64,000 nucleotides of DNA from Vulcanimicrobiota bacterium (GTDB taxonomy: Bacteria > Vulcanimicrobiota > Vulcanimicrobiia > Vulcanimicrobiales > Vulcanimicrobiaceae): contig DAIDGX010000023.1 in the NCBI GenBank assembly GCA_027452165.1, forward strand, positions 124,001 to 188,000, read 5' to 3'. The notes beneath the pieces are model-generated. The model was given only the letters and a program-made list of their open reading frames with translations. It was not told the origin of the DNA and searched no databases. The position numbers were made by a program, and so were the translations under genes. Positions 16,846 through 24,240 of the stretch are shown here, in pieces; positions within the stretch are counted from its first letter, which is position 1; each line of letters starts with the position of its first letter.

Positions 16846-16929
16846 TGCACGGGCCGAGACTCGAACTCGGACGGGATTGCTCCCGCTAGCACCTCAAGCT
16901 AGTGCGTCTACCAATTCCGCCACCTGTGC
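16846..16929 (-). tRNA. tRNA-Leu (anticodon GAG)
   Basis: The minus strand reads as a class II tRNA of 84 nt without an encoded CCA. The acceptor 5' strand is GCACAGG, the D-arm has GGCGGAATTGGTAGAC, the anticodon arm is CTAGC-TTGAGGT-GCTAG with GAG at the anticodon, the long variable arm is CGGGAGCAATCCCGT, and the T-arm is CCGAG-TTCGAGT-CTCGG. The acceptor stem has one A-C mismatch (fifth pair). It decodes CUC/CUU leucine codons. It follows the dppC-like gene by 52 bp on the same strand. Confidence 0.93.
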
Positions 16930-16981: not shown

Positions 16982-17923
16982 CTACTTCATGTTCGGGTCA
17001 AGTGCATCGCGCAGACCGTCCCCAATATAGTTGATCGAGAGCACGGTGACCAGAATGCAGAGGCCGGGAAAGACCGCGGCCCACCACGCGATCTGTAGGT
17101 TAGCCTGTGCGTTTGCGAGCATATTGCCCCACGACGCGGTTGGCGGCTGGATGCCGAAGCCAAGGAACGAGAGGGTGGACTCGAGCACGATCACGTTGGC
17201 CACGTCCAGGGTGGCCTGCACCACGATCGGCGCGACCGCATTCGGCAGCAGGTGCCGGAAGATGATCCGCAAGTCGCCGTTGCCGACCGCCCGGGCGGCC
17301 TCGGCAAACTCCCGTTCCCGCAAGGTGAGGAACGAGGCCCGCACGAGGCGTGCGACGGCCGGCCACGAGAGGGCGCCGATAATCAACACGATCACGCCGA
17401 AGTTGAGCGCCGACTTTGACGAGCTCGATGCCACGATCGCGGTGAGGACGAGCAGCAGCGGCAGCAACGGGATCGACAGGAAGACGTCGGTGATGCGCAT
17501 CAGCGCCCAATCGACCCAGCCGCCGTAGTATCCGGCGAGGGCGCCGAGCGTCGTGCCGATCAGCACTTCGATGAAGACGGTAAAGATGCCGACTTCGAGC
17601 GAGATGCGCGCGCCGAAGAGCAGACGCGAGAGCAGGTCGCGTCCCACCTCGTCGGTCCCGAGCAGGTGACCGCCACAGAGCGCCGCGTTCTCAAAGCACG
17701 GCGGCAGCGGAGTCCCTTGCCAGTGCACGTTGTCGATGAAGTTGGGATCGAACGGGGCGAGTTGTTTTGCCAGGATCGCAGCGAGCACCATGACGGCAAG
17801 CACCACGAAGCCGGCGACGGCCAAGCGGTGGCGGCGCAGGCGGGTCCAGAACGTAACCTTGGAGTAAGCGGCGTCGTCATCGTCAAACCGCGCGTTCGGA
17901 GTAGTCGGAATCGTTGCGGACAA
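16982..17923 (-). CDS. ABC transporter permease, DppC/OppC family
   Basis: Inner-membrane subunit of a peptide-type (Dpp/Opp) importer. At 313 aa it has the OppC N-terminal segment (FWTRLRRHRLAVAGFVVLAVMVLAAILA), about six TM helices, and the BPD permease signature with the EAA loop (REFAEAARAVGNGDLRIIFRHLLPNAVAP). The periplasmic piece HLLGTDEVGRDLLSRLLFGARISL is the usual OppC marker. It pairs with the DppB-like gene 9 bp upstream. The substrate-binding protein and ATPases are not in the window, so substrate cannot be called; the link to the Kce-like gene hints at peptide or amino-acid uptake. Confidence 0.92.
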   Translation of the reverse strand: MSATIPTTPNARFDDDDAAYSKVTFWTRLRRHRLAVAGFVVLAVMVLAAILAKQLAPFDPNFIDNVHWQGTPLPPCFENAALCGGHLLGTDEVGRDLLSRLLFGARISLEVGIFTVFIEVLIGTTLGALAGYYGGWVDWALMRITDVFLSIPLLPLLLVLTAIVASSSSKSALNFGVIVLIIGALSWPAVARLVRASFLTLREREFAEAARAVGNGDLRIIFRHLLPNAVAPIVVQATLDVANVIVLESTLSFLGFGIQPPTASWGNMLANAQANLQIAWWAAVFPGLCILVTVLSINYIGDGLRDALDPNMK

Positions 17924-18951: not shown

Positions 18952-19776
18952 CTACGCCGCTTCACGCCTGCGCAGCCCGAGAATCTCGCGCGCCTGATCG
19001 GGGGTGGCGACCGGGCGTCCGGCCTCTTGCGCGATCCGCACGACGCGGGCTACCAGCTCTTCGTTTTTCGCCAAGCGCCCTTTGCTATAGAACAGGTTAT
19101 CCTCGAGGCCGACCCGCACGTGCCCCCCCATCGCGATCGCCGCGAGCGCCATCGGCAGTTGCTGCCGGCCGATGCCCGCGACCGACCACGTGCAGCCGGC
19201 AGGCAGATCGGCGACGAGGTCGGTCAAGTTCGGGACGGTCGCTTCCATGGCGCCCCCGACGCCGAGCACGAAATCGACGTGCTGGGGAAAGCTGAGCAGC
19301 CCTTCCTTGGCCAGACGCCGGGCGTTGGCAAGGTGGCCTTTGTCGAAGATCTCGAGTTCGGGCTTCACCCCGAACTCGTGCATCTTTGCAAGGATCCCAC
19401 GCATGATCGGAAAGCTGTTTTCGAAGATGTCGTCGCCGAAGTTGACCGAGCCACAGGTGAGCGTCGCCATCTCCGGGCGCAGTTGCAGCACCGCCGCACG
19501 CTCCTCGGGCGTCATGCCGATGGCACCGCCCGTCGAGAACTGCACGATGAGATCGCTCGCCCCGCGGACCGCGTCATAGGCCTCGCGGAAGCGCTCCACG
19601 CTGTGCGTGTTCGTACCGTCGTCGTTGCGACAATGCACGTGCACGATCGACGCTCCCGCCTCGCGGATCGCCTTCGCCGTCTCCGCGAGCTTCGCGGGCG
19701 TGTAGGGCAGGTGCGGCGTTTGGTCGGGCGTGACTTCCGCCCCAACGGGCGCGCAGGTGATGATCAGCGGTTCCAT
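18952..19776 (-). CDS. Beta-keto acid cleavage enzyme (BKACE / Kce family)
   Basis: Zinc-dependent Claisen-type enzyme that condenses a beta-keto acid with acetyl-CoA, releasing acetoacetate and a CoA ester. Kce in lysine fermentation uses 3-keto-5-aminohexanoate. Visible motifs are the HxH metal ligands in IVHVHCRNDDG, FSTGGAIGMTPEER, CGSVNFGDDIFENSF, and the Glu in VRVGLEDNLFYSKGRLAKN. Using the ATG at 19776 (MEPLIITCAPVG) the product is 274 aa, the family's normal length; an upstream TTG-type codon at 19869 would give 305 aa with an atypical leader. BKACE members differ widely in substrate, so the lysine assignment is only suggested by the KamBC-like genes 1 kb further on. A divergent gene starts 114 bp upstream. 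Confidence 0.88.
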   Translation of the reverse strand: MEPLIITCAPVGAEVTPDQTPHLPYTPAKLAETAKAIREAGASIVHVHCRNDDGTNTHSVERFREAYDAVRGASDLIVQFSTGGAIGMTPEERAAVLQLRPEMATLTCGSVNFGDDIFENSFPIMRGILAKMHEFGVKPELEIFDKGHLANARRLAKEGLLSFPQHVDFVLGVGGAMEATVPNLTDLVADLPAGCTWSVAGIGRQQLPMALAAIAMGGHVRVGLEDNLFYSKGRLAKNEELVARVVRIAQEAGRPVATPDQAREILGLRRREAA

Positions 19777-19890: not shown

Positions 19891-20610
19891 GTGCCCGAGT
19901 TTTCAACGCAAACCGTCTCACTCGCCGTCGCGGACGGAACGACCATGGATGCCTATATCGCCACCCCGGCCGCGCGTAGCACGGATGCACCGGGCATCAT
20001 GGTCTTTCAAGAGGCCTTCGGCGTGAACGCACACATCAAAGACGTCGCGCAGCGTTTCGCAAAACTCGGCTTCGTGGCGATCGCACCCGAACTGTTTCAC
20101 CGTAGCGCCCGCGGCTTCGAAGGCTCCTACACCGATTTCGCCGGCGTGCGCGAGCACATGGCCGCGCTCACCCTCGCGGGCCTCCAGGCCGACATCGACG
20201 CGACGTACGCATACCTCGCGAAATCCCCCGGCGTCGATCGCGAGCGCCTCGCGGCAACGGGTTTCTGTCTCGGCGGCCGCGTGACGTACCTCGCAAACGC
20301 GCGTGTGCGGCTGCGCGCAGGCGTGTCGTTCTATGGCGGCGGCATTGCGCCAGATCTGCTGCCGTTCGCAGCGCAGCAACATGCGCCGCTCCTGATGTTC
20401 TGGGGCGGTCTCGATACCCATATCCCGCCCGAGCAGTACCGCGCCGTCGCCGACGCGCTGAGCGCTGCCAACGCGGTCCACGAGCAGGTCGTCTTCGGCC
20501 AGGCCGATCACGGCTTCTTCTGCGATCAACGTGCGAGCTACAATCCGGTTGCAGCGCGCCAGGCCTGGGCGCTCACGCTCGAGTTCCTCCGTGCCTACGA
20601 CGTCGCTTGA
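19891..20610 (+). CDS. Dienelactone hydrolase family protein
   Basis: An alpha/beta hydrolase of the DLH family, 239 aa, which hydrolyses lactones or esters such as dienelactone. The catalytic triad is visible: Cys126 in the nucleophile elbow GFCLGG, Asp175 in WGGLDTHIP and His207 in QADHGFF. The oxyanion region QEAFGVN is typical. Members open the lactone ring in chlorocatechol and beta-ketoadipate-like routes, but many housekeeping members have other ester substrates and no aromatic-degradation genes accompany this one. It is transcribed away from the Kce-like gene and converges on the KamC-like gene, ending 58 bp before it. Confidence 0.9.
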   Translation: MPEFSTQTVSLAVADGTTMDAYIATPAARSTDAPGIMVFQEAFGVNAHIKDVAQRFAKLGFVAIAPELFHRSARGFEGSYTDFAGVREHMAALTLAGLQADIDATYAYLAKSPGVDRERLAATGFCLGGRVTYLANARVRLRAGVSFYGGGIAPDLLPFAAQQHAPLLMFWGGLDTHIPPEQYRAVADALSAANAVHEQVVFGQADHGFFCDQRASYNPVAARQAWALTLEFLRAYDVA

Positions 20611-20668: not shown

Positions 20669-22270
20669 TCATCGTTCGAGCGCGTCATAGGCCGATGCGG
20701 TCAGCGCATCGTCGAGGCCGAGTAGCGCGGCGAGCGCGATCGCATCCGAGCGCCGCGTTGCCTCCCGTGTGACCTCCTCGATGGCATAGTCCATCGAGGC
20801 CGCAAGTGTTACGAGCGCGGCGTGCAGATCGTCGGTCGCAGGCCGATGCGGTATGCCGCGCAAGCCGCGCACGGCGAAGTGCCGGGCGCCGGCCGCCGGA
20901 GCGACGCCGTCGAGATGCGTCGCGGCGAGCGCGCGCGCACCGGTCGCGCGCAGGCGCTCGAGCACCGCAACGAGCAGTGCGCGCCCCTCCCGCGGCGTGG
21001 TCGTACGGGCAAACTCATCGAGCAATACCAAACGGCGCTCCCGCGGACGCGCGAGCGCGTCGCGCAGGCGCACGACCTCGCGCGCGAACGACGAGAGTAG
21101 CCCGCCCATCTCTACGTCGGTCCCCGCTCCGAGCCACACGATCTCGTCGAACAGCGGCACGTTCGCTTCCATGGCCGGCACCGGCAATCCGTATGCAGCG
21201 CAGAGCGCGATAAAGCCGCAGGTGCGCAAGCAGACGCTCTTCCCACCCATATTCGGACCGGTCAGCACCGCAACGTCGTCCAGGTGCACGTCGATCGGCG
21301 TGAACGCTCGCCCTTCGCGCTGCAGTTCGTGTTCGAGCGCAACGTGACGTCCGCCGCGAAAGGAAAACGTTGCATCCTCGCCAATCGCCGGGACCGCGCA
21401 GCGATGCGCTTGCGCGAAACGCGCTGCGGCAACCAGAAGGTCGATCTCGCCAAAGGTGCGCGTCGCGAGGTCGAGCGCCGCAGCGTGCGCGCGAATTACC
21501 GCGGTCAAACGCTCGCGGATAAGCTCCTCCTCCTGCGCTACGGCCGCTGCTGCCTCGTCCCGGCGCGCGAGCGCCCCAAGCGTCGCCTCGTCGGCGTCGA
21601 GCTCGCAAAGGATGTAGGTCGGCGCTTCGCGCACGACGCGCACGCCCGCGGGCAGCGTGCCGCTCAGGTCCGCGCGCATGACGATGAACTCGTTTCCGGC
21701 AATCTCGCGGCCGAGCGTGGCGGCGACGGCGGCGTGCGCGCGACCTCGCACCGCGTCGTACTCCGCCTGCGCACGCGCGAGCGCTGCACGTGCGCCCGCC
21801 AGACGCTCGTCGAACGCGTCGGCAACGTAGAACCCGAATCTTCCGGAACGCCCCAATTCCAGGGCGCGTGCGCTCGCGCGCACCGCATCGGAAGCGACGC
21901 CCGGCAACTCGAAGCAATCGCCCACGAGGCCGTCGAGACGTTCGCAAGCATCGAAGAAACGTTGCAGTTCCAGCAAATTTGCGTCGGCGAGCGCATCGCC
22001 CATCGATGCGCGAGCGATCGCGGGCGATGCGTCGGGCACGTTGCGCAAGACCTCGCGTACGGCATCGAGACGTGCCGCGTCGAGCGCGCGCGCGAGCCGC
22101 ACGATCCGGGCGGCGTGCTCCTGTGCTTGCCCCTCGCTGCCGCGACGAAACGGTTCGACAGCAAGATATGCGCGATCGCCGTACGGGCTTACCGGGGCGA
22201 GTGCATCGCGCAACCATGCCGCATCGAGCGCGCGCACGGAGAGATCGTCGAGAAGCTCGCCGTGCTTCAT
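20669..22270 (-). CDS. MutS-related ATPase, KamC-like aminomutase reactivase subunit
   Basis: A 533-aa MutS-fold ATPase lacking the N-terminal mismatch-binding domains. It has a helical core (residues 1-320), a Walker A GPNMGGKS (338-345), Walker B LVLLDEF (414-420) and the MutS-type signature TDVEMGGLLSSF and THLDGVAP. This resembles KamC, the MutS-like partner of KamB in lysine 5,6-aminomutase operons, where the pair reactivates the B12/PLP enzyme. The start at 22270 is set by an ATGA overlap (22267-22270) with the KamB-like gene, which argues for a single protein unit. A direct role in DNA repair is unlikely given the missing domains, but MutS2-like relatives remain an alternative. Confidence 0.8.
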   Translation of the reverse strand: MKHGELLDDLSVRALDAAWLRDALAPVSPYGDRAYLAVEPFRRGSEGQAQEHAARIVRLARALDAARLDAVREVLRNVPDASPAIARASMGDALADANLLELQRFFDACERLDGLVGDCFELPGVASDAVRASARALELGRSGRFGFYVADAFDERLAGARAALARAQAEYDAVRGRAHAAVAATLGREIAGNEFIVMRADLSGTLPAGVRVVREAPTYILCELDADEATLGALARRDEAAAAVAQEEELIRERLTAVIRAHAAALDLATRTFGEIDLLVAAARFAQAHRCAVPAIGEDATFSFRGGRHVALEHELQREGRAFTPIDVHLDDVAVLTGPNMGGKSVCLRTCGFIALCAAYGLPVPAMEANVPLFDEIVWLGAGTDVEMGGLLSSFAREVVRLRDALARPRERRLVLLDEFARTTTPREGRALLVAVLERLRATGARALAATHLDGVAPAAGARHFAVRGLRGIPHRPATDDLHAALVTLAASMDYAIEEVTREATRRSDAIALAALLGLDDALTASAYDALER

Positions 22271-23160
22271 GCCGCCTGCGCCGCGTACACGTCGAAGGTC
22301 GGCATGCCGGTGGCCTCGGCCACGGCGTGCAACAGCGCGCCCGGTTCGAACGAACGGTCGCGGCCGGCCGACGAGACCGTGACCGCAACGACGTTCAAGG
22401 GACGTTCGCAGCGCACGTCGAGTCTCTCGAGCGCATGCAAAGCCGCGCGCCCGCCGAGCGCGATTTTGGTCGGATCGCGTACGACGACGCTGCGACGTTC
22501 GTCCGCGCGCATCAACTCTGCGGCGATTCCGGGCGTCAACGCTCCGTCGATGCGCACGTGCGGCGCGCCCGGCTCGACGCGCGCCACACACAGACGCCGC
22601 ACCAGCGCGCGCACATCGGCAACCGCTTCGTCGAGCGTTCCCGCGGCAGACGCCCCGCACGCCACCACGACCGCATCCTCGCCGCCGGCCAGCGCCGCGA
22701 TACGATCGATCGCACCATCGACGATGACGTACGGCGCAAACCTTCGCAGCATCGCGACGGCTTCGCGGATGCCCGACGCCGTCGGCGGGCCAACCAACTC
22801 GTAATAGGCATCGCTGCGCACGCGGACGTACACGAGATTGCCCGCGGCCGTGCGCAGTGGCGAGAGCGCGAGCATTTCGCTTGCCGGCGAACGCGGGAGC
22901 ACGTCACGCGCGGTCGCGATCACCGTTCCAGGGCGCAAGAACAACCGTGGCTTCGGCTGCGCGTCTCCCATATCGATCGCTTCGCCGTCACGCCCGATCG
23001 AGGTGAGGCCGGGCAGCACTCCGGCAGCCACGCATGCGTCGTAAATCGCGCGCATCGTGACGGTCTTGCCCACGTTTTTCCCGGTTCCGACAACAAAGAG
23101 CGACGACGTTCCCGTCGCTTGGGCGAGTTGCAAAATCGATGCGCCGACACGTGCGTGCAT
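22267..23160 (-). CDS. P-loop protein, KamB-like aminomutase reactivase subunit
   Basis: A 297-aa protein with a Walker A motif GTGKNVGKT at residues 25-33 followed by a Thr-Met helix (MRAIYDACVAAG). The body contains AIDMGDAQPKPRLFLRPGTVIATARDVLP and a further segment VIVDGAIDRIAALAG. This is the organisation of KamB/OrB-type reactivase subunits that accompany B12-dependent amino acid aminomutases. Its stop codon overlaps the KamC-like ATG (ATGA). The large open frame upstream of 23160 in this phase is antisense shadow from mntP and is not counted. The aminomutase itself (kamD/kamE) is not in the window. Confidence 0.78.
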   Translation of the reverse strand: MHARVGASILQLAQATGTSSLFVVGTGKNVGKTVTMRAIYDACVAAGVLPGLTSIGRDGEAIDMGDAQPKPRLFLRPGTVIATARDVLPRSPASEMLALSPLRTAAGNLVYVRVRSDAYYELVGPPTASGIREAVAMLRRFAPYVIVDGAIDRIAALAGGEDAVVVACGASAAGTLDEAVADVRALVRRLCVARVEPGAPHVRIDGALTPGIAAELMRADERRSVVVRDPTKIALGGRAALHALERLDVRCERPLNVVAVTVSSAGRDRSFEPGALLHAVAEATGMPTFDVYAAQAA

Positions 23161-23174
23161 ATCGGCGCTTTCTC

Positions 23175-23744
23175 TTAGTCGAGGTGCAGGGCCTTGAGCG
23201 CGATGAAGACGGCGCCCGTCAGCAGCAAGAGGATGCCGCCGAGCAATTCGGCACGATCCTCCACGCGTTTGCCGAGCGCACGACCCAGGCTCAATCCAAG
23301 CGCCGTCGCCGCGATCGAAACGGCGCCGATTACCGCAAGCGAAATCGTGATCGGCACCTTGATGTACAGGATCGAGAAGCCGATGCCGAGCGAATCGAGG
23401 CTGATCGACGCCGACGCAACGAACAGCCCCCAACCGCTCGACATGTCGAGCGGCTCGCGATCTTCGAGGTCGCGCGAAGCCTCGTAGATCATGTATGCGC
23501 CCACGCCGACGAGCGCGACGAAGCCGAGGTACCCCGCAAGCTCCCCAAGGTAGCGACCGGCCACAATCCCCAGGCCCGCGCCAAGCAGGTTCATCGTGAT
23601 CTCGGCACTTGCGAACGCGATGCCGATGCGAACCTTCGCGCGACGCGGGATACCGCGCACACCGACGCCGATCGAGACCGCGAACACGTCGAGCGCGAGC
23701 GAGAAGGCGATAACGACGATCTTGATCGCCGACGCAACGGTCAC
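23175..23744 (-). CDS. mntP: Manganese efflux pump MntP
   Basis: A six-helix inner-membrane protein exporting Mn2+. At 189 aa it matches MntP in length. The membrane-embedded acidic residues typical of the family are seen as ALDVFAVSIGVG in TM1 and SLDSLGIGFSI in TM4, and the two halves are internal repeats. A conserved GGILLLLTGAVFI segment ends the protein. It is encoded on the minus strand 14 bp upstream of the KamB-like gene and 18 bp downstream of a receiver protein. In Escherichia coli mntP is preceded by a Mn riboswitch (yybP-ykoY); the 18-bp gap here leaves no room for one. Confidence 0.93.
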   Translation of the reverse strand: MTVASAIKIVVIAFSLALDVFAVSIGVGVRGIPRRAKVRIGIAFASAEITMNLLGAGLGIVAGRYLGELAGYLGFVALVGVGAYMIYEASRDLEDREPLDMSSGWGLFVASASISLDSLGIGFSILYIKVPITISLAVIGAVSIAATALGLSLGRALGKRVEDRAELLGGILLLLTGAVFIALKALHLD

Positions 23745-23762: not shown

Positions 23763-24185
23763 CTACAGATTCTGCGCGCCGAAATACGCTTCGCGCTTGG
23801 AGAGCAGATGGCTCACCGCCGAGCGCAATTGCGAGATCGTGAACGGTTTGTTCAGGAAGAGATTCGCGCCGGCATTCTTCGCGCGTCCGTCCATTGCGTA
23901 GTTGGTATGGCCGGAGATCATCAAGATCGGCACGCCGCGCGTGCTCTCTTTGCCGCGTAGGCGCTCGATCAAGTCGATGCCGGAGATGCCGGGGAGCATG
24001 AAGTCGCAGATGATGATATCGAACGGCCCTTGACGATCGACCGCCACAAGCGCGCTCTCGGCGTCGTTGCACATGATCATCTCATAGGGTCCCTTGCGCA
24101 ACACCGTATCGATGAGCGTGCAGATCGCCGGATCGTCGTCCGCGATTAACACCCGCCAGTTGCGCTGCACCATCTGCTCAGCCAT
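23763..24185 (-). CDS. Stand-alone response regulator receiver protein (CheY-like)
   Basis: A single receiver domain, about 140 aa. The acidic pocket DDD is at residues 16-18, the phospho-acceptor Asp at 61 (IIICDFMLPGISG), a Ser in ILMISGHTNY and the Lys in LFLNKPFT. No output domain follows, so it acts through partners. I chose the ATG at 24185, which follows AGGAGG-type sequence at 24197-24202; an in-frame codon at 24215 would add ten Gly/Arg-rich residues. A histidine kinase partner is not adjacent; the multi-GAF kinase at about 53 kb is an unproven candidate. It is divergent from the ModB-like gene with a 55-bp gap. Confidence 0.9.
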   Translation of the reverse strand: MAEQMVQRNWRVLIADDDPAICTLIDTVLRKGPYEMIMCNDAESALVAVDRQGPFDIIICDFMLPGISGIDLIERLRGKESTRGVPILMISGHTNYAMDGRAKNAGANLFLNKPFTISQLRSAVSHLLSKREAYFGAQNL

Positions 24186-24240
24186 TCGCGGCCGTCCACC
24201 TCCTGCCTCGCCCATCTCGTGATGCTTTGGTAAACTTTAG

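Follow-up and report, generated by a model that had tools for sequence, protein, structure and literature searches.

Which enzyme does a KamB-KamC-type gene pair serve when no aminomutase gene lies beside it? The window analysed here, a stretch of 64,000 nucleotides from a Vulcanimicrobiota genome, raises this question: an earlier note had described a P-loop protein (GTGKNVGKT) and a MutS-fold ATPase lacking mismatch-binding domains, joined by an ATGA overlap, a description with which our coordinates and MutS alignment agree. The genes concerned and their neighbours are as follows.

23763-24215, minus strand: single-domain response regulator (Pfam Response_reg), upstream of mntP
23175-23744, minus strand: MntP-like manganese efflux pump (Pfam Mntp), 14 bases upstream of kamB
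22267-23160, minus strand: kamB, 297 aa, P-loop (SIMIBI-type) NTPase with the GTGKNVGKT motif; putative divergent lysine 5,6-aminomutase reactivase subunit KamB
20669-22270, minus strand: kamC, 533 aa, MutS-fold ATPase; putative lysine 5,6-aminomutase reactivase ATPase KamC
19891-20610, plus strand: dienelactone-hydrolase-family gene (Pfam DLH), between kamC and kce
18952-19776, minus strand: kce (BKACE), 382.8 bits against NF052387 (cut-off 382); sole BKACE gene of the genome
17933-18907, minus strand: oppB-like ABC permease (Pfam BPD_transp_1), downstream of kce, synteny kept in Eremiobacterota loci
16982-17923, minus strand: oppC-like ABC permease (Pfam BPD_transp_1 and OppC_N), downstream of oppB, synteny kept in Eremiobacterota loci

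The overlap between kamB and kamC comprises four bases (22267-22270), with the kamC start inside the kamB stop codon, and mntP and kamB are probably co-transcribed. A tRNA gene lies just past the oppC end of the cluster (16846-16929, minus strand); it was the sole RNA match, and neither the window nor the other pathway loci yielded a riboswitch.

KamC and a divergent KamB

The KamC identity is the firmer of the two. The protein scores 331.9 bits against NCBIfam model NF052383 (cut-off 300), spanning profile positions 4-505 of 508, and carries a Walker A motif (TGPNMGGKS). Against the MutS2 model it reaches 154.8 bits, below the equivalog cut-off of 400 and over only positions 237-450 of 790, and against the MutS model 129 bits. 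Because KamC can be aligned to MutS and MutS2 from the core onward only, its residues 64-454 matching Thermus aquaticus MutS 315-698, the mismatch-binding domains (MutS domains I-II) are absent. MutS and MutS2 of this genome are encoded by genes of their own, which score 180 and 169 bits. We rejected an assignment to MutS2, given these separate genes and a KamC score more than twice the MutS2 score.

For KamB, the sole NCBIfam match is the KamB model NF052386, at 167 bits, short of the cut-off of 210. This shortfall is general: among the 117 genomes of the class that we surveyed, none reaches 210 bits and all 91 with a match fall below it, so that the Eremiobacterota KamB is a diverged subfamily rather than the window's protein being an outlier. 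The contextual marks of KamB are nevertheless present, namely the P-loop GTGKNVGKT, the ATGA overlap with kamC and co-occurrence with KamD in 55 of 55 good-quality genomes, and we file the protein as a divergent KamB homologue rather than a strict member of NF052386. The KamB-KamC identification made in the earlier note thus holds up, with KamC above its curated cut-off, the two genes adjacent in Bacillota as in Eremiobacterota, and co-occurrence with KamD; a profile comparison that it had proposed returned KamC as the best match of one protein and KamB, below cut-off, as the sole match of the other.

The KamB sequence matched neither solved structures nor PHROGs. Its predicted structure (pLDDT 90.6) has a P-loop fold like that of SRP, BioD and DUF1611 proteins, resembling SRP GTPases and dethiobiotin synthetase (Z 10-12) and the DUF1611 protein 2obn. 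A Foldseek search with the model gave no match at E ≤ 0.001, and placement in the SIMIBI class comes from weaker Foldseek matches, among them members of the LAO/AO (MeaB-type) family such as 3nxs, and from a VIA second look. Separately, the KamBs of two loci that retain kamC (L120 and L162) have lost a near-invariant GRDGE segment.

A lysine pathway dispersed over three contigs

The genome (2.64 Mb in 27 contigs) carries the pair and kce on one contig, C23. Both subunits of lysine 5,6-aminomutase are encoded on contig C4 (KamD alpha, 803 bits, cut-off 600; KamE beta, 359 bits, cut-off 280), with Kal (195 bits, cut-off 160) on the same contig about 37 kb away. Kdd (255 bits, cut-off 200) is encoded on contig C13, where its neighbours are a KamA-family gene and an Lrp/AsnC regulator, in the order lrp-kdd-kamA. 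The KamA-family protein (C13:49.1-50.5 kb; L013:9155-10528) passes the subfamily model, but despite the adjacent kdd it misses the lysine 2,3-aminomutase equivalog (249.7 vs 525.4 bits), making the substrate of KamA the weakest link of the pathway. By these profile matches, genes for the route from lysine through KamA, KamDE, Kdd and Kce to Kal are present, dispersed over C4, C13 and C23.

Whole-genome searches placed all matches to kamD, kal and the KamA family outside the window and the kce match inside it only, and kdd on C13, in keeping with the earlier observation that the window lacks kamA, kamD and kal. The statement that the pair stands without its aminomutase therefore applies to the neighbourhood and fails for the genome, and a true orphan pair was rejected. 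Because the remaining pathway genes turned up on other contigs, a pathway split around the genome, one of two explanations offered beforehand, was the right alternative; the other, service to a different B12-dependent aminomutase, gives way to a KamDE that is present within a scattered pathway. The apparent orphan pair is now placed in a dispersed lysine pathway.

What this pathway does for the cell is a further matter. The genome encodes two heme-copper oxidases, which point to an aerobic organism, and for this reason the pathway probably feeds respiration rather than fermentation; we propose that an aerobe uses it to break down lysine. A role in growth would be tentative, as the phylum's first isolate, an obligate aerobe, showed no growth on L-lysine alone (PMC9758169). 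An anaerobe-style B12 route is unexpected in such a phylum.

Linkage to kce and the history of the cluster

The Kce/BKACE gene had been placed about 1 kb from the pair, and it does lie some 0.9 kb from kamC, separated by the plus-strand dienelactone-hydrolase gene. Its product passes the Kce cut-off narrowly, begins with the conserved start MEPLIITCAP and has the Kce structure 2y7d as its nearest solved relative. Its HVH, GAE and LEDN align with HLH, GAE and FEDN of 2y7d, which we take to include the metal site (HxH) and the Glu-Asp pair of that enzyme.

Three arrangements in relatives bear on this proximity. Bacillota loci have the order kdd-kamA-kamB-kamC-kamD-kamE; an order-level outgroup within Eremiobacterota (L169) holds lrp-kdd-kamA-RR-kamB-kamC-kce-oppB-oppC in one cluster, its response regulator (RR) likewise adjoining kamB; and the window's family keeps RR-mntP-kamB-kamC-kce-oppB-oppC with kdd-kamA no longer alongside. 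On account of these arrangements, the closeness of kce to kamBC is a real linkage, most likely handed down from a lysine cluster that was once larger. The adjacency of kamB and kamC is shared by loci of Bacillota and of Eremiobacterota. The dienelactone-hydrolase gene is present at the kamC-kce junction only in the two closest relatives (L124 and L125) and absent from the other loci; the KamB of L124, a Candidatus Eremiobacterota record, is 82% identical to that of the window. Upstream of kamB, the window's family almost always has the MntP-like gene.

KamDE as the probable client

The class-wide survey of 117 genomes detected KamB in 91, Kal in 88, KamD in 84 and KamC in 69. Within the good-quality subset (completeness ≥ 90%, contamination ≤ 5%; n = 70), KamB and KamD were both present in 55 genomes, both absent in 15 and discordant in none, although the genomes are related and do not amount to 70 independent tests; all discordant genomes of the full set were less than 90% complete. 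Kal occurred in 53 of the 70. Co-occurrence with an aminomutase among relatives, a check proposed at the outset, is thus complete in this subset.

Cumulatively, we assign a probability of roughly 0.88 to the reading that the two proteins together reactivate KamDE, the B12/PLP-dependent lysine 5,6-aminomutase encoded elsewhere in the same genome. No NCBIfam family fits either protein better than KamC and KamB; on the other side stand the KamB score below its curated cut-off and the KamA-family score below that for lysine 2,3-aminomutase, together with the lack of growth of the cultured aerobe on L-lysine and the two methylmalonyl-CoA-mutase-type proteins of the genome, which would be alternative B12 clients. 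The earlier note had named a best match to MutS2 together with a genome free of B12-dependent aminomutases as evidence against its own reading; the best match is to KamC, and KamDE is encoded.

How such a factor could act is suggested by the chemistry of its presumed client. Lysine 5,6-aminomutase undergoes suicide inactivation through electron transfer from cob(II)alamin to the substrate radical, which leaves cob(III)alamin behind (PMC3958899). KamDE would inactivate itself during turnover by this oxidation; KamB, the SIMIBI-type P-loop NTPase, together with KamC, the MutS-fold ATPase, would bind the stalled enzyme and use ATP to open it, whereupon the damaged cobalamin would leave and fresh adenosylcobalamin enter. 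The reactivase activity, the choice of KamDE as client and the ATP-driven exchange are proposed by analogy with other B12 reactivases. A search of the available literature for experimental work on KamB/KamC reactivases found none, the matches to the name KamB referring to an unrelated antibiotic-resistance methyltransferase.

Repeated loss of kamC

KamC was not detected at E ≤ 1e-60 in 12 of the 55 good-quality genomes with KamD. In 11 loci from 3-4 lineages (L139-L143, L146, L149, L154, L158, L163 and L168), all of them in draft or metagenome-assembled sequences, the junction of kamB and kce lacks kamC while kce and oppBC are kept. There kamB usually abuts kce, mostly within about 60 bases; in L168 a glycosyltransferase-like gene lies between the two, and an in-frame scar left by codons 185-223 of kamC persists in L149. 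Whole-genome searches of the KamC-less genomes found only MutS/MutS2-level scores, up to 187 bits, while control genomes with kamC showed an additional match at 299-319 bits. On a tree of Kce and OppB, the distribution of kamC needs four changes, at least three of them forced by well-supported branches, and since Bacillota and the outgroup carry kamC, the absences are most simply read as losses, in at least three lineages.

KamD is kept in the KamC-less groups and Kal in most of them. The median pN ratio of kamB to kce was 2.04 in KamC-less pairs and 2.67 in pairs with kamC, a comparison drawn from few, non-independent pairs; as the ratio is no higher where kamC is missing, KamB there apparently remains under constraint. 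We consider it possible, at somewhat less than even odds, that the lysine 5,6-aminomutase of Eremiobacterota depends on KamB as its essential factor for reactivation or cobalamin loading, with KamC a dispensable partner that disappeared on at least three occasions while KamB, KamDE and the pathway stayed. This proposal, in which KamB alone is the reactivase or loading chaperone and KamC an accessory in some lineages, would refine rather than replace the assignment of KamBC as the reactivase, and we hold it tentatively: the absent genes, the L149 scar, the unrelaxed KamB and the retained KamD and Kal argue for it, whereas the draft or metagenome-assembled state of all the genomes, the thinness of the pN comparison and the possibility that MutS2 has taken over argue against it, and most lineages keep kamC, so KamC matters there.

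Two features of KamB follow the absence of KamC, both leads picked after seeing the data. In alignment A3, numbered by the window's protein, position 55 is Ala (SAGRDGE within SxGRDGE) in 9 of 9 KamC-less KamBs, with the truncated KamB of the KamC-less genome G063 (SIGRDGE) as an exception, and the SPA motif at 91-93 is lost in most KamC-less KamBs. Judged from the alignment, Ala55 and the loss of SPA may mark a contact with KamC or a compensating change.

The G063 protein (L116:4954-5667) is without some 60 middle residues and is possibly decaying. A Sericytochromatia locus (L184:10001-18000) contains kamB, kamD and kamE and no kamC; the best KamC-model match in its genome scores 203 bits and lies in a 788-aa frame.

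That KamC was lost repeatedly while KamB stayed is the unexpected part of these results and merits a second look. These lineages supply natural enzyme sets with which to ask which of the two proteins reactivates the mutase.

Other clients and other functions

A different client for the pair, for instance one of the two methylmalonyl-CoA-mutase-type (MM_CoA_mutase) proteins that are the genome's other B12 clients, would make the link to lysine merely historical. Besides the presence of these proteins, the broad P-loop class that KamB shares with MeaB/ArgK-type chaperones is compatible with such a role, as is gene order: kamBC lies beside kamDE in no Eremiobacterota locus, and in a single-contig genome (G104) the two are 1.5 to 2 Mb apart. 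However, the complete concordance of KamB with KamD, the linkage of the pair to kce, which in the outgroup extends to kdd and kamA, and the fact that KamD is the genome's sole match to the Lys-AminoMut_A family leave this alternative very improbable; ornithine aminomutase as the client is likewise unlikely. That KamC is a MutS2- or MutS-like protein of DNA or ribosomes, beside which an unrelated P-loop protein, KamB, lies by chance, is less probable still, the matches of KamC to the MutS2 and MutS models being outweighed by the KamC score, the separate MutS and MutS2 genes and the long-held kamB-kamC adjacency.

Comparison with known systems

With KamDE retained as the probable client, the pair can be set beside its nearest counterparts. 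MeaB, like the KamB proposed here, serves a B12 enzyme, and the SIMIBI P-loop chaperones MeaB/ArgK, BioD and MinD are similar to KamB in predicted fold, a likeness that shows no function; KamB has no sequence match to any solved structure. MutS2 and MutS share with KamC the core and ATPase domains of the MutS fold, whereas KamC, at 533 aa, has no mismatch-binding domains and is distinct from the genome's own MutS and MutS2.

The closest likeness is to the KamB-KamC pairs of lysine-fermenting bacteria (NF052386 and NF052383), with which the window shares gene order, both protein families and the presence of the pathway genes in the genome. It differs from them in that the pair lies away from kamDE and is linked instead to kce and an oligopeptide-type permease pair, in a KamB that falls short of the 326-position model in length and of its cut-off in score, and in the loss of kamC from some relatives. 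A mutS-family gene is also drawn in the lysine fermentation clusters of Fusobacterium and Ca. Cloacamonas, where kamA, kamDE, kdd, kce and that gene belong together as they do here (PMC3149608); in the present genome, however, they are spread over three contigs. The pair itself is ordinary, and it is the arrangement that is unusual.
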